From Polynucleobacter sp. UK-FUSCHL-C3 (GTDB lineage: Bacteria; Pseudomonadota; Gammaproteobacteria; Burkholderiales; Burkholderiaceae), in NCBI RefSeq assembly GCF_040409815.1, contig NZ_CP099959.1:1240001-1304000 (forward strand): a stretch of DNA of 64,000 nt, given 5' to 3'. The number at the start of each line of letters is the position of its first letter. The stretch's first letter is position 1. The translations under genes and the position numbers were made by a program. Below the pieces are notes generated by a model. That model had not been told where the DNA came from. It searched no databases and saw nothing but the letters and a program-made list of their open reading frames with translations. This document shows, in pieces, positions 16,063 to 59,598 of this stretch.

Positions 16063-17610
16063 TTATGGGGCCATTTGCGCGTTGAGCTTAATCGCGTTGG
16101 GATCATGCAATTTGTTCAAAGCCGCCAAATAGGCTTTGGCCGACGCTGCAATGATGTCTGGATCCATGCCGACGCCATTCACAATCCGCCCGCCCTTTGA
16201 GAGACGCACAGTGACCTCCCCTTGTGATTCCGTACCCGATGTAATCGCATTAACGGAATACAACAATAACTCGGCGCCACTCTTCGCCTCGGTCTCGATC
16301 GCATGCAAAGTAGCATCGACAGGACCATTGCCCTCAGACTCCGAATGCACATCCTTACCGCCCATCTTGAACACGACTTTCGCTGTTGGCTTCTCACCGG
16401 TCTCAGAATGTTGGTTTAAGGATACAAAACTAAAGTACTCACCCTGGTCGGTTATGGATGAATCTGACATCAAAGAGGTAATGTCCTCATCAAAGATCTC
16501 TGCTTTTTGATCAGCCAATGCCTTAAAACGTGCGAAGGCATCGTTAAGCTCACTCTCGGAGTCCAAGACAATGCCTAACTCCTGAATACGTTGCTTAAAG
16601 GCATTCCGCCCAGATAACTTACCAAGCACGATCCGATTGGTTGCCCAACCCACATCCTCGGCACGCATAATCTCGTAGGTATCCCGTGCTTTCAAAACAC
16701 CATCTTGATGAATCCCAGAGGCATGAGCAAATGCGTTCGCACCGACAACTGCTTTATTAGGCTGCACTACAAAACCAGTAATTTGTGAAACCAATTTAGA
16801 TGCCGGCACAATTTGTTTCGTATCAATGCCTAACTCTAATTTAAAGAAATCCTTACGGGTACGAACTGCCATCACAATTTCCTCTAAAGAGGTATTACCA
16901 GCACGCTCGCCAAGACCATTGATAGTGCACTCCACTTGACGGGCACCCCCAATATGAACTCCTGCCAAGGAATTCGCTACCCCCATACCTAAATCATTAT
17001 GGCAATGCACAGACCAAATCGCCTTATCTGAGTTTGGTATCCGCGTACGCAAAGTTTTGATGAACTCGCCATACAACTCAGGAACTGCATAGCCCACGGT
17101 ATCAGGAACATTGATGGTCGTTGCACCCTCAGCGATTACTGACTCCAAAACTCGGCATAAGAAATCCATATCTGAGCGATAGCCGTCTTCGGGAGAAAAC
17201 TCGATATCGCCTGCCAAATTTCTAGCAAAACGAATTGATTTCTTCGCCTGCTCGAATACCTGATCAGGGGTCATTCGTAATTTCTTTTCCATATGTAAGG
17301 CACTGGTTGCCAGAAACACATGAATCCGTTTAGCTTGAGCAGGCTTTAGGGCATCGGCTGCGCGCGTGATATCAGCCTCATTAGCTCGAGCTAAGGAGCA
17401 AACAATAGAGTCTTTCACAGCGGCGGCAACTGCGCTAATAGCAGCAAAGTCGCCTTCGGAACTCGCTGCAAAACCAGCTTCAATCACATCCACGCGCAAG
17501 CGCTCAAGCTGACGTGCAATCCGCACTTTTTCGTCACGAGTCATGGATGCACCGGGTGATTGCTCACCATCTCGCAAGGTGGTATCAAAAATAATTAATT
17601 TGTCGCCCAT
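16063..17610 (-). CDS. leuA: 2-isopropylmalate synthase
   Basis: LeuA condenses acetyl-CoA with 2-oxoisovalerate in the first committed step of leucine synthesis. The 515-residue type 1 enzyme has the TIM-barrel start [17 protein letters not shown], the metal-binding [13 protein letters not shown], the NGLGERAGN motif and a C-terminal LeuA dimer (leucine-feedback) domain from about residue 390. The ribosome-binding site is AAAGAGGAAATACT just before ATG 17610. Expression is very likely controlled by the attenuator immediately upstream (leuL and terminator). It is the last gene of the ilv-psd-pssA-leuA run but has its own candidate promoter. Confidence 0.97.
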
Positions 17611-17640
17611 AGTATTTCCTCTTTAACTGCACAGTTCCAT

Positions 17641-17669
17641 AAACAAAAACCCCAGCTGTTTGGCTGGGG
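17641..17669 (-). terminator. leuA attenuator terminator hairpin
   Basis: On the minus strand CCCCAGC, loop CAAACA, GCTGGGG forms a perfect 7-bp GC-rich stem followed directly by TTTTTGTTT. It lies 36 bases after the leuL stop and 31 bases before the leuA ATG. This is a textbook intrinsic terminator placed in the leader of a leucine gene. An alternative pairing between 17718-17727 and 17662-17670 (GGCTCGGGGC with GCCCCAGCC, one bulged base) would sequester the terminator's 5' arm and act as antiterminator. Confidence 0.88.
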
Positions 17670-17704
17670 CTGGTTGGTTAGCTAGTAACTACGAATTCAT
17701 TTTG

Positions 17705-17779
17705 CTAAGCGCGACCCGCCCCGAGCCTAAGGCCCAGTGCCAGTAGAAGTAGTAAAAGCGCGCTTGGTTTCAATAACAT
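17705..17779 (-). CDS. leuL: leu operon leader peptide
   Basis: This 24-codon ORF, ATG 17779 to TAG 17705, has 11 leucine codons. Six are consecutive (codons 8-13), and they include rare-type as well as common leucine codons. It sits between pssA and the leuA attenuator terminator. Its role would be leucine sensing: a ribosome starved at codons 8-13 would cover RNA down to about 17728. That leaves 17718-17727 free to form the antiterminator, so leuA is expressed. A ribosome reaching the stop codon would cover that segment and allow the terminator. The peptide itself probably has no function. No Shine-Dalgarno sequence is visible before the ATG. Confidence 0.88.
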   Translation of the reverse strand: MLLKPSALLLLLLALGLRLGAGRA

Positions 17780-17785
17780 GACTTA

Positions 17786-17814
17786 ACTATACCGCATTTA
17801 ATCTGATTTGTGGA
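17786..17814 (-). promoter_or_regulatory. Candidate leuL-leuA promoter inside the end of pssA
   Basis: On the minus strand a -35-like TCCACA (17809-17814) and a -10 TATAGT (17786-17791) are separated by 17 bases. The -10 matches the consensus at five of six positions and the -35 at four of six. Transcription should begin six or seven bases after the -10 box, at or within a base of the leuL ATG (17779), which would make leuL leaderless. The -35 box lies in the last codons of pssA. Confidence 0.55.
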
Positions 17815-18673
17815 TGGCTGTGGTTTCCCCACCAATTCGACGTCCTGTTGCCCTCTCCCAAAGCCACAGCACGTAACCCGATAAGGCGTACACCACGAAT
17901 ACACCAAATAAGGTGAGGGGTGGATTTGTAGATATCAGGACAAAGCCTAGAATCACTAACACCATAACCCAAAAAGGGACGCGGTAGCGAACATCCAAAG
18001 CCTTACCGCTATAGAAACGTGCATTCGATACCATCGTGAGTCCCGCATAGATGGTGATGAAAAAGGTCACGATCGGAATTGCTGAATCCTTAACCGGAAT
18101 CTTATTGTCATCCGCTAGCCAAATAAAACCGGCAATTAAAGCAGCGGCAGCCGGGCTGGGAAGGCCCTGAAAAAATTTCTTATCGACCACACCAATGTTG
18201 GCATTAAAGCGGGCTAAGCGTAAAGCAGCTCCAGCACAATACGTAAAGGCAGCCAACCAGCCCCACTTACCAAGATCTTTTAAGACCCACTCATACGCCA
18301 CCAAGGCGGGGGCTACTCCAAAAGAGACCATATCAGCTAATGAGTCGTATTGCTCACCAAAAGCACTTTGCGTATTGGTCATGCGGGCAATGCGTCCATC
18401 CATACCGTCTAAGACCAAGGAAGCAAAAATAGCAATGGCTGCGACCTCAAAACGATGGTTCATGGCGTTTACGATTGCAAAGAATCCACAGAATAACGCT
18501 GCCGTCGTAAATGCATTAGGCAATAAATAAATACTTTTACTGCGCGGTCTTGCGGGCAAGGAGATGGGATCCTCATCAAGCGACTCGTCATTGCCGTCCC
18601 AATCATCGCGTCGTACGTTTCTACTCCTTAAAAAACGGAGACGATCTTGACGAAATTTACGGCGTGGCAACAT
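17798..18673 (-). CDS. pssA: CDP-diacylglycerol-serine O-phosphatidyltransferase
   Basis: The enzyme makes phosphatidylserine from CDP-diacylglycerol and serine, the step before Psd. The 291-residue membrane protein carries the CDP-alcohol phosphatidyltransferase signature DGx2ARx8Gx3Dx3D in full (DGRIAR, then GEQYDSLAD, about residues 90-115). About seven hydrophobic helices follow a 45-residue charged cytoplasmic N-terminus. It lies three bases after psd, so substrate and product enzymes are co-transcribed. Confidence 0.95.
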   Translation of the reverse strand: MLPRRKFRQDRLRFLRSRNVRRDDWDGNDESLDEDPISLPARPRSKSIYLLPNAFTTAALFCGFFAIVNAMNHRFEVAAIAIFASLVLDGMDGRIARMTNTQSAFGEQYDSLADMVSFGVAPALVAYEWVLKDLGKWGWLAAFTYCAGAALRLARFNANIGVVDKKFFQGLPSPAAAALIAGFIWLADDNKIPVKDSAIPIVTFFITIYAGLTMVSNARFYSGKALDVRYRVPFWVMVLVILGFVLISTNPPLTLFGVFVVYALSGYVLWLWERATGRRIGGETTAIHKSD

Positions 18674-22689: not shown

Positions 22690-22932
22690 TTTTCCTTTTC
22701 CTTTGCAATTTTCGGCAAAAAATTGTTTAGGCTGTTCTGTCCCATACTTATGGTCCGGGTTCGAACGGCACCGCCGCGCAGAAAATTAAAGCCACTTCTT
22801 GGATGGTTTCTTTGCGGTAAGCCTTATATTGTAAAGCAATAGCCTAGAATGAGCGAGCTAAGCCCTTAATTCAGATCGATTTATAAGCTAAATTGTCCTC
22901 CTTTAACCTATCCCGCAAGCCCCAGATTTAGA

Positions 22933-23502
22933 ATGGCATCCGCCCAAGAACTGAACCTTTTCCTAGCCAGTATTGAGAAAAAGGCCTTTAAACAGGCTGT
23001 TTATGCCGTTCGGGATGATGCCAGCGCCCTAGACATTGTTCAGGATGCCATGATTAGTCTGGCTGAAAAGTATGCCGATCGCCCTGCTAGCGAACTCCCT
23101 TTGATCTTCACCCGAATTCTCCAAAATCGGATTCATGACTGGTTTAGACGCCAAAAGGTCCGCAATACCTATGAAACCTCTTTCTCCTCCCTGGGCTCTG
23201 GTCAAGATGGCGAGGAAAGCTTTGACCCTCTAGAACTGCTTGAAATCAGGGATGATGCCCAAATATCCCAAGACGGGGAGGAAAAGCTCGCACAAAGTCA
23301 GTTATTGGCTATCCTAGAGGCTGAAATAACAAAATTGCCAATTCGTCAACGAGAGGCCTTCCTCATGCGTTATTGGGATGAGCTAAGTACGGCCGAAACA
23401 GCTCTCGCCATGGGGTGCAGCGAGGGAAGCGTTAAAACCCATTGTTCCCGGGCCACCAATACTTTGGCCGCTGCCTTAAAAGCCAAAGGAATTGTGCTGT
23501 GA
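22933..23502 (+). CDS. ECF-type RNA polymerase sigma factor
   Basis: This is an alternative sigma factor of the extracytoplasmic function group. The 189-residue product shows sigma region 2 (ALDIVQDAMISLAEKYAD, then LPLIFTRILQNRIHDWFRR) and region 4 with a helix-turn-helix (LPIRQREAFLMRYWDE, CSEGSVKTHCSRA). It opens a tight plus-strand cluster: DUF3619, DUF3106 and RDD proteins follow with gaps of two to nine bases. That cluster is conserved in Burkholderiales. The stimulus and regulon cannot be read from sequence. Confidence 0.92.
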   Translation: MASAQELNLFLASIEKKAFKQAVYAVRDDASALDIVQDAMISLAEKYADRPASELPLIFTRILQNRIHDWFRRQKVRNTYETSFSSLGSGQDGEESFDPLELLEIRDDAQISQDGEEKLAQSQLLAILEAEITKLPIRQREAFLMRYWDELSTAETALAMGCSEGSVKTHCSRATNTLAAALKAKGIVL

Positions 23503-58434: not shown

Positions 58435-59598
58435 ATGGACTTTTCAATATCGCCTGAGCTAATTGCCCTAAGGGATCAAACTAGGCAATTTATTACTCAA
58501 AAAATCATACCCTTGGAGGGCGATCCCCGGGAAACACCACACGGACCCTCCCCTGAATTACGTCAAACACTAGTTGAGCTTGCCAAAAAAGAAGGTCTTC
58601 TTACTCCGCATGCTTCTAAAAAACATGGTGGTTTAGGCCTAAGCCATGTTGCAAAGGCTATCGTCTTTGAAGAGGCTGGCTATTCGCGATTAGGCCCAAT
58701 TGCCATGAATATTCATGCGCCAGATGAGGGCAATATTCATTTGATGGAACAAGTTGCCAGTCCCGCCCAACAAAAACGCTGGTTGATTCCTCAAATTGAA
58801 GGTAAGTTACGTTCCTGCTTTGCAATGACTGAACCTGCGCCTGGTGCCGGATCTGATCCATCAATGCTAACAACGACAGCAATCAAAGATGGTAAAGACT
58901 ATGTGATCAATGGGCGTAAATGGTTTATCACTGGTGCCGATGGCTCTGACTATGTGATCATCATGGCACGTACCGAAGATGGCCAAGCGACCATGTTTTT
59001 ATCCGACATGGATGCTCCTGGAATTGAGATTGAACGCAATATGGATTCGATGGATCAGTGTTTTGCGGGCGGGCATAGTGTGTTGGGTTTTAATAATTTA
59101 CGTGTTCCCGAAGATCAAATTTTGGGTGAAGTCGGTAAAGGCTTTCGGTATGCACAAGTGCGTCTTGCCCCCGCACGATTGACCCATTGCATGCGTTGGC
59201 TAGGTCAAGCCCGGCGTGCGCAAGATATTGCACTAGCATATGCACAAAAGCGACAGGCTTTTGGTCAACGGCTCGGCGATCATGAAGGTGTTGGATTTAT
59301 GTTGGCTGACAATGACATGGATCTTCAAACCGCACGCTTGCATATTTTGCATACCGCATGGTTGCTTGATCAAGGTGAGAAATGTAATTATGAATCCAGC
59401 CGTGCCAAAGTAATTTGCTCAGAAGCTGAATGGCGAGTCGTGGATCGCTGTGTTCAAATTATGGGTGGACAAGGTGTGACAGGCGAAACTGCGGTGATGC
59501 GTATCTTTACCGATATGCGTGCTTTTCGTATCTACGATGGTCCCAGTGAGGTACATCGTTGGAGTATGGCCAGAAAACTTTTGGATCAAAAGGCATGA
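58435..59598 (+). CDS. Acyl-CoA dehydrogenase, ACAD10/11 (LvaC)-like
   Basis: This is a flavin acyl-CoA dehydrogenase-fold protein of 387 residues: an N-terminal helical domain, a middle beta domain (CFAMTEPAPGAGSDPSM, WFITGADGSDY) and a C-terminal helical domain. The catalytic segment near the C-terminus reads YDGPSEVHRW, with Asp368 where straight-chain enzymes have the base Glu of YEGT. DGPxEVH is also, as I recall, the ACAD10/11 pattern. With the SDR and kinase genes downstream it may act on 4-phospho-acyl-CoA rather than as a simple dehydrogenase. Its stop overlaps the SDR start by four bases. Confidence 0.85.
   Translation: MDFSISPELIALRDQTRQFITQKIIPLEGDPRETPHGPSPELRQTLVELAKKEGLLTPHASKKHGGLGLSHVAKAIVFEEAGYSRLGPIAMNIHAPDEGNIHLMEQVASPAQQKRWLIPQIEGKLRSCFAMTEPAPGAGSDPSMLTTTAIKDGKDYVINGRKWFITGADGSDYVIIMARTEDGQATMFLSDMDAPGIEIERNMDSMDQCFAGGHSVLGFNNLRVPEDQILGEVGKGFRYAQVRLAPARLTHCMRWLGQARRAQDIALAYAQKRQAFGQRLGDHEGVGFMLADNDMDLQTARLHILHTAWLLDQGEKCNYESSRAKVICSEAEWRVVDRCVQIMGGQGVTGETAVMRIFTDMRAFRIYDGPSEVHRWSMARKLLDQKA

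Follow-up and report, generated by a model that had tools for sequence, protein, structure and literature searches.

A probable leucine attenuator with a predicted leaderless leader peptide in front of leuA in Polynucleobacter

The interval between pssA and leuA in Polynucleobacter sp. UK-FUSCHL-C3 very probably encodes a leucine-specific, ribosome-mediated transcription attenuator of leuA, with a leader peptide that appears to be translated from a leaderless transcript. The leuL-type reading first made from the sequence of this locus is supported by the presence of a leader and a terminator in 120 of 120 genus loci, by the runs of Leu codons, by a change of complementarity in one subgroup of leaders and by the geometry of the predicted switch.

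The pssA-leuA interval and its conservation in Polynucleobacter

In the window (the whole stretch of 64,000 nucleotides that was analysed), the minus strand carries, in this order, ilvI, ilvH, ilvC, psd, pssA, the leader, leuA, the gene for ribosomal protein S15 and the gene for polynucleotide phosphorylase, all named from Pfam domains and context. The interval from the pssA stop codon (17798) to the leuA start (17610) accommodates a promoter-like site, a 24-codon open reading frame (ORF) and a terminator (Table 1). The LeuA protein is 79-95% identical to those of the same-genus genomes listed.

Table 1. Features of the pssA-leuA region, in coordinates of the window
Feature	Coordinates	Strand	Basis or remark
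pssA, CDP-alcohol phosphatidyltransferase, upstream gene	17798..18673	-	last codons overlap the predicted -35 region
Predicted promoter: -35 TCCACA (17814-17809), 17-nt spacer, -10 TATAGT (17791-17786)	17786..17814	-	9 of 12 consensus positions, 0.1 expected
Leader ORF, MLLKPSALLLLLLALGLRLGAGRA + stop; 24 sense codons, 11 Leu	17705..17779	-	sequence; conserved in 120/120 genus loci examined
Candidate control codons, six consecutive Leu codons (codons 8-13)	17741..17758	-	sequence; CTA enrichment in leaders
Small ORF hairpin GGGCC-UUA-GGCUC, candidate protector (1:2), competes with the antiterminator	17723..17735	-	pairing in the alignment
Candidate antiterminator strand GGCTCGGGGC (segment 2), pairs with 17670-17662	17718..17727	-	complementarity; subgroup change
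Intrinsic terminator hairpin AGCCCCAGC-CAAACA-GCTGGGGTT (segments 3 and 4); 5' arm 17670-17662 is the antiterminator partner	17648..17671	-	terminator scan; conserved
U-tract TTTTTGTTT, overlapping the last two hairpin bases	17641..17649	-	sequence, terminator scan
Shine-Dalgarno-like AGAGGA of leuA	17617..17622	-	sequence
leuA, 2-isopropylmalate synthase, regulated gene in the attenuator reading	16063..17610	-	Pfam HMGL-like, LeuA_dimer

The 24-codon ORF with 11 Leu codons, six of them in a row, on which the sequence-only reading was built is exact to the base on the minus strand, with the ATG at 17779-17777 and the TAG stop at 17707-17705. The leader is rich in codons for the amino acid of the pathway, as in a leu-type attenuator. 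A run of five Leu residues or a Leu content of 40% occurs in only two ATG ORFs of 12-45 aa within the 64-kb window. Furthermore, 22 short ORFs of the window have a -10-like hexamer 6-8 nt before the ATG and two of these are followed by a terminator-like hairpin; the leuA leader alone combines the hairpin with richness in a single amino acid. No second leader was detected before ilvI (22690-22933), either by reading or in the window-wide scan.

The leaders also favour the codon CTA. In Polynucleobacter (34 loci), CTA makes up 34.8% of the Leu codons of the leaders vs 1.1% of those of leuA, and the respective values in other Burkholderiales (51 loci) are 41.4% and 0.4%. Because leuA itself hardly uses this codon, CTA suits a leucyl-tRNA sensor. 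The control codons of Escherichia coli leuL are likewise the rare CTA.

A separate short ORF, at 59312 on the plus strand of the window, also combines a -10-like box, 6-8 nt upstream of the ATG, with a terminator-like hairpin downstream and is not enriched in any amino acid; this arrangement is probably due to chance.

The 7-bp GC terminator with a U-tract noted in the sequence-only reading is found at 17671-17648, between the leader and the structural gene; the hairpin has nine pairs, seven of them in the GC-rich core, and a T-rich tail. It is the one terminator-like site within 17600-17900, where 0.2 would be expected in shuffled sequences. The overall fold of the 261-nt region is no better than that of shuffles (z = +0.67), and a stable overall fold was rejected as evidence for an attenuator. 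Known RNA and peptide families were ruled out too, given that no model fits the leader: the Rfam models give no match to the window at the gathering score and, with E relaxed to 10, none above chance level, and Pfam and NCBIfam give none to the window leader peptide, with a single sub-threshold NCBIfam match for a relative.

Each of the 120 Polynucleobacter regions examined (L001-L025, L031-L039 and L111-L196) has a short, Leu-rich ORF and then a terminator before leuA; 117 of them were recognized by script and three (L127, L166 and L176), which failed the script patterns, were read by eye. The sample was drawn from the 169 genomes, out of 186 in the genus, that gave a LeuA match, and some of the records may be duplicates; the 117 parsed regions collapse to 109 distinct leaders, 75 of which were used for the structure alignment. 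The longest Leu run is two residues in 4 of the 109, three in 16, four in 71, five in 16 and six in 2. Loss of the Leu run or of the stems in close relatives, named at the outset as the observation that would count against an attenuator, is thus not what the genus displays: leader and terminator are kept in 120 of 120 loci and a run of at least three in 105 of 109, with only two Leu residues in the other four. The N-terminus of the leader peptide drifts freely, the Leu run is kept, and most leaders retain LALSL-x-LGAGKA, a peptide segment whose coding sequence forms the competing RNA strands. In L006 and L119, the frame is shifted after the Leu run, so that the peptide end and the position of the stop are changed and the RNA strands are kept.

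It is hard to credit that the hairpin is a mere terminator of the ilv-psd-pssA transcript, that the Leu-rich ORF arose by chance and that leuA is expressed from its own downstream promoter. A pssA terminator would look identical and the overall fold is unremarkable, but all 120 genus loci have retained the Leu-rich ORF, the CTA codons and the complementarity, and many other families also carry a Leu-rich leader before leuA. Moreover, the promoter-like site that was found precedes the hairpin, and there is none between the hairpin and leuA.

Promoter spacing and the predicted leaderless start

The promoter-like site, which had been missed in the sequence-only reading, has a -10 hexamer that ends exactly 6 nt before the leader ATG. 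Given this spacing, transcription is expected to begin at the AUG itself, leaving no ribosome-binding site; the predicted transcription start is the A of the ATG (17779). No Shine-Dalgarno sequence is present before the window leader ORF, and the leader looks leaderless, i.e., predicted to have neither a 5' UTR nor a Shine-Dalgarno motif.

This spacing is a general property of the leaders. Among the 109 distinct Polynucleobacter leaders, the distance from TATA(G/T)T to the first in-frame ATG is 6 nt in 94, 7 nt in 13, 8 nt in one and 9 nt in one. Outside the genus, 57 leaders were picked by Leu content alone from 87 leuA regions, and in every one of the 57 a -10 hexamer precedes an in-frame ATG by 6-8 nt, whereas no other spacing up to 20 nt occurs in more than 2 of 57. 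The background frequency of the box at this spacing is 145 of 6,570 ATGs (2.2%) in Polynucleobacter and 162 of 17,165 (0.9%) in the others. A further order-wide sample of 77 loci, to which nearly the same Leu-rich rule was applied, yielded a Leu-rich ORF in 44 loci and none in 33; the box is located at 6-8 nt in 28 and at 9-10 nt in 9 more, and most of the remaining 7 of the 44 look spurious. A Shine-Dalgarno-like motif precedes 7 of 109 Polynucleobacter leaders vs 31 of 32 leuA starts, and 0 of 57 leaders vs 55 of 65 leuA starts outside the genus.

These numbers bear on the explanation that the attenuator is a conventional one, with the leader located on a longer transcript (from an upstream promoter or through ilv-psd-pssA read-through) and the -10-like box incidental. 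The upstream genes are co-directional and separated by short gaps, so some read-through is likely, and the leader ATG is 18 nt past the pssA stop codon, near enough for re-initiation. We nevertheless consider this explanation improbable, given that a Shine-Dalgarno motif is absent before 102 of 109 and 57 of 57 leaders and that the box keeps a fixed distance of 6-8 nt from the ATG in many genera despite changes in the surrounding sequence.

Alternative pairings and switch geometry

The sequence-only reading held that the 3' part of the ORF can pair with the 5' arm of the terminator, and this pairing exists: apart from one bulged C, GGCTCGGGGC (17727-17718) and GCCCCAGCC (17670-17662) are complementary, and the duplex energy is -22.4 kcal/mol vs a mean of -10.0 kcal/mol for shuffled Polynucleobacter ORF tails. 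Throughout the genus, the mean pairing energy of leader tails is -19.8 kcal/mol with their own terminator arms and -11.5 kcal/mol with arms from other Burkholderiales, vs -10.0 kcal/mol when the tails are shuffled. The advantage of the own arms is less marked outside the genus (own arms -13.5, swapped arms -11.6 and shuffled tails -10.0 kcal/mol).

The check for covariation that had been suggested gave a divided answer, positive for the terminator and the small ORF hairpin and negative for the antiterminator columns. None of the nine terminator pairs is disrupted in any of the 75 aligned leaders, and one pair shows C-G to U-A changes; in the small ORF hairpin 91.7% of cells are paired, with compensatory changes on both sides. 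Together, the two structures have 14 cells changed on both sides vs 2.5 in shuffles, a number reached by none of 500 shuffles, and their covariation score is reached by one of 500; two of the five measures, the number of pairs with a change on both sides and the number of pair types, are unexceptional (reached by 88 and 110 of 500 shuffles, respectively). The antiterminator columns of the 75-leader alignment show no covariation because most of the bases are invariant and the subgroup pairs in a shifted register. Column covariation was accordingly set aside as evidence for the antiterminator, and shared changes had to be read by subgroup.

The subgroup consists of the 10 of 75 aligned leaders that end with LGSVHA instead of LGAGKA, and it carries a changed terminator arm together with a matching change in the leader: CTGGGGT faces ACCCCAG, whereas elsewhere GCT-bulge-GGGGC faces GCCCCAGC. 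The base preceding CCCC in the terminator arm is A in this subgroup and G in most others. Given that A and G both pair with the U of the 3' arm, pairing within the terminator does not explain the change; the leader partner does. An antiterminator that would exclude the terminator is therefore indicated by the complementarity in the window and in its relatives and by the matching subgroup change, with column covariation absent.

The same subgroup is relevant to the possibility that the leader peptide, or the short terminated RNA, acts also in trans, besides attenuation in cis. Termination would release a leaderless RNA of about 135 nt, the rnTrpL of Sinorhizobium meliloti is such a dual-function RNA in the available part of its description (PMC10117765), and the C-terminus LGAGKA is kept in much of the genus. 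However, the C-terminus changes where the pairing changes, as in the LGSVHA leaders, and L006, with its shifted frame, keeps the RNA segment and not the peptide. We explain the conservation of LGAGKA by the fact that the C-terminus encodes RNA pairing, and regard an additional role in trans as quite unlikely.

To describe the proposed cis attenuator, the ribosome was modelled with its A site on a Leu codon and 13 nt covered from the first base of that codon. With a stall at window codon 13, 17735-17731 are covered and 17727-17718 are free, and, as long as the terminator 3' arm is not yet made, the modelled probability of the antiterminator is 0.81-0.90 in the window. Hence the earlier claim about stall geometry fits this model, in that the antiterminator would be free at the stall and would form before the terminator 3' arm appears. 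At the best stall position, the antiterminator exceeds a probability of 0.7 in 107 of 109 Polynucleobacter leaders and in only 7 of 51 outside the genus. With the ribosome at the stop codon, the antiterminator cannot form, by construction of the mask. Once the full terminator is present, it is favoured at every stall position in the window (0.65-0.85), and its probability falls below 0.3 in only 22 of 109 Polynucleobacter leaders. Equilibrium folding thus does not demonstrate a switch; a decision by ribosome position would fit the geometry and co-transcriptional folding, but not equilibrium folding. Since the terminator mostly wins at equilibrium, the decision has to be kinetic, as attenuator decisions are generally held to be. 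In the model without a ribosome, the window antiterminator still forms (0.85), suggesting that the protector hairpin is weak in the window; in L012, the protector blocks the antiterminator (0.0).

We propose that attenuation would proceed as follows. As the promoter spacing suggests, RNA polymerase would initiate transcription with the A of the leader AUG, and a ribosome would load on the bare 5' end. When leucyl-tRNA is plentiful, the ribosome would reach the UAG and cover the GGGGC half of 17727-17718, so that the hairpin at 17671-17648 could terminate transcription before leuA. When leucyl-tRNA is scarce, the ribosome would be expected to stall on the Leu run and to cover the upstream half of the ORF hairpin (17735-17731), leaving 17727-17718 free. 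The free strand could then capture the 5' arm of the terminator (17670-17662) before the 3' arm is made, allowing read-through into leuA.

Leucine leaders in other Burkholderiales and relation to known attenuators

By the Leu-content rule, 57 of the 87 leuA loci outside the genus have a Leu-rich leader and 30 have none. In 11 of these 30 loci (L066, L070, L078, L084, L085, L088, L093, L096, L099, L101 and L106), leuA is directly preceded by a divergent LeuA-like gene (24-27% identity to the window LeuA); a Leu-rich leader stands in front of this gene in nine of the 11 (not in L085 and L088), with a -10 box at 6-8 nt in seven. Among the others, L062 is cut by the contig end, L043 has a GTG start, L056 has a 46-aa leader and L065 fails the run rule; the rest of the 30 lack a leader or were not resolved. 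Separately, in L207, a gene 28% identical to the window LeuA is preceded by the same kind of apparently leaderless Leu leader and a terminator.

The part that follows the leader varies. In Comamonadaceae-type leaders such as MKTNLLALLLTPHGRDV, the ORF contains ACGGGC and the terminator arm has GCCCGT as its counterpart. In 33 loci, which represent at least 21 families besides that of the window (L027, L029, L104, L198, L202, L203, L211, L212, L219, L221, L222, L225, L227, L228, L232, L234-L239, L242-L249, L254, L271, L273 and L277), the leader ends with LLLR plus 2-4 residues, mostly encoded as CTG CTG CTG CGC ... CGC stop, and the stop is followed by a C-rich, G-poor tract (C content 41% and G content 9.5% over the first 25 nt). 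A strict intrinsic terminator is found in 0 of these 33 loci, by a rule that also misses many of the longer-loop Comamonadaceae-type terminators (17 of 51 found). A looser rule finds a hairpin in 51 of the 57 other loci, including several unconvincing ones of the LLLR type. The LLLR-type loci are candidates for Rho-dependent or other attenuation.

Taken together, these patterns lead us to a tentative suggestion, for which the odds are somewhat below even, that the Burkholderiales share one leaderless leucine leader before the leuA unit, in which the promoter runs directly into the start codon of a Leu-rich peptide. The sensing half would be fixed and the readout half exchanged, either for unrelated intrinsic terminators (Polynucleobacter and the Comamonadaceae type) or for candidate Rho-dependent attenuation (the 33 LLLR-type loci), and the leader might outlive even an exchange of the enzyme gene behind it.

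Another cis-regulatory RNA of the branched-chain neighbourhood, the ilvH RNA motif of Rfam (RF02993), differs from the leader in place and in structure. It matches 6 of 20 related Burkholderiales loci scanned, about 2.6-2.9 kb before leuA (L047 346-413, L053 24-91, L063 105-173, L072 53-120, L074 1-56 and L107 122-189). The motif was found neither in the window nor at the leuA leader of any of the 20 loci; some of these loci have short flanks, and there its absence says little.

As in the window, the leuL of the leuABCD operon in E. coli and Salmonella is a leader ORF with Leu codons directly before leuA, and its segment model likewise involves competing protector, antiterminator and terminator pairings. 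This leader has 28 aa with 4 Leu in the available text of its description (PMC6123439). Unlike enterobacterial leuL, the window leader is predicted to lack a Shine-Dalgarno motif and a 5' UTR, has the competing strands inside the ORF, and matches no Rfam or Pfam model. In Corynebacterium glutamicum, a study of ilvBNC is said, by its cited title, to concern leader peptide formation without a ribosome binding site. The leader before leuA in that organism has four consecutive Leu codons, as given in the portion of the source at hand (PMC4046766). On that partial account, these are branched-chain amino acid leaders like that of the window but belong to Actinobacteria and are unrelated in sequence.

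Other systems resemble the window in the predicted mode of initiation. In Streptomyces lividans, LeuL1 (before leuA) and LeuL2 (before leuS) are leader peptides with Leu runs on leaderless transcripts; a hairpin and a U stretch lie behind LeuL2, and LeuL1 is without a typical intrinsic terminator, according to the accessible part of the report (PMC8079986). Like LeuL1 as characterized there, the window has a Leu-run leader before leuA on a transcript that is leaderless, by prediction in our case; the phylum is distant, the peptides are unrelated, and the window has the intrinsic terminator that LeuL1, in that text, lacks in typical form. In S. meliloti, the trpL attenuator RNA (rnTrpL), with a dual function, starts with the AUG of the leader ORF in the excerpted description (PMC10117765). 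From what that source gives, it is, like the predicted window RNA, a proteobacterial attenuator RNA beginning at the leader AUG, but one that concerns tryptophan and trpE in Alphaproteobacteria. In Campylobacter jejuni, a 28-aa LeuL precedes leuABCD and has five Leu codons, all rare and CUA included, in the sections available of two papers (PMC3847290, PMC11955535). In those sections, this epsilonproteobacterial leader is not described as leaderless. Given that leaderless leader peptides are known from Streptomyces leuA and Sinorhizobium trpL, the kind of system is not new.

For the Betaproteobacteria, no report of a leuA leader peptide was found among the matches listed in open-access full text; the 2004 survey of proteobacterial attenuators by Vitreschak and co-workers may hold a prediction. 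A survey of Polynucleobacter RNA motifs (PMC8632094) has no leuA in its main text.

In a widespread freshwater genus, leuA is thus assigned a putative leucine-specific control, and many other Burkholderiales have this leader layout, which is not described in the libraries and literature searched. As the whole decision is predicted to fall within some 135 nt of RNA with the start codon at the 5' end, the locus would be a compact system in which to study how a ribosome loaded on a bare 5' AUG stays in step with RNA polymerase. Should the Burkholderiales indeed share one such leader, the order would represent a natural experiment on the coupling of a leaderless ribosome to different termination machines.
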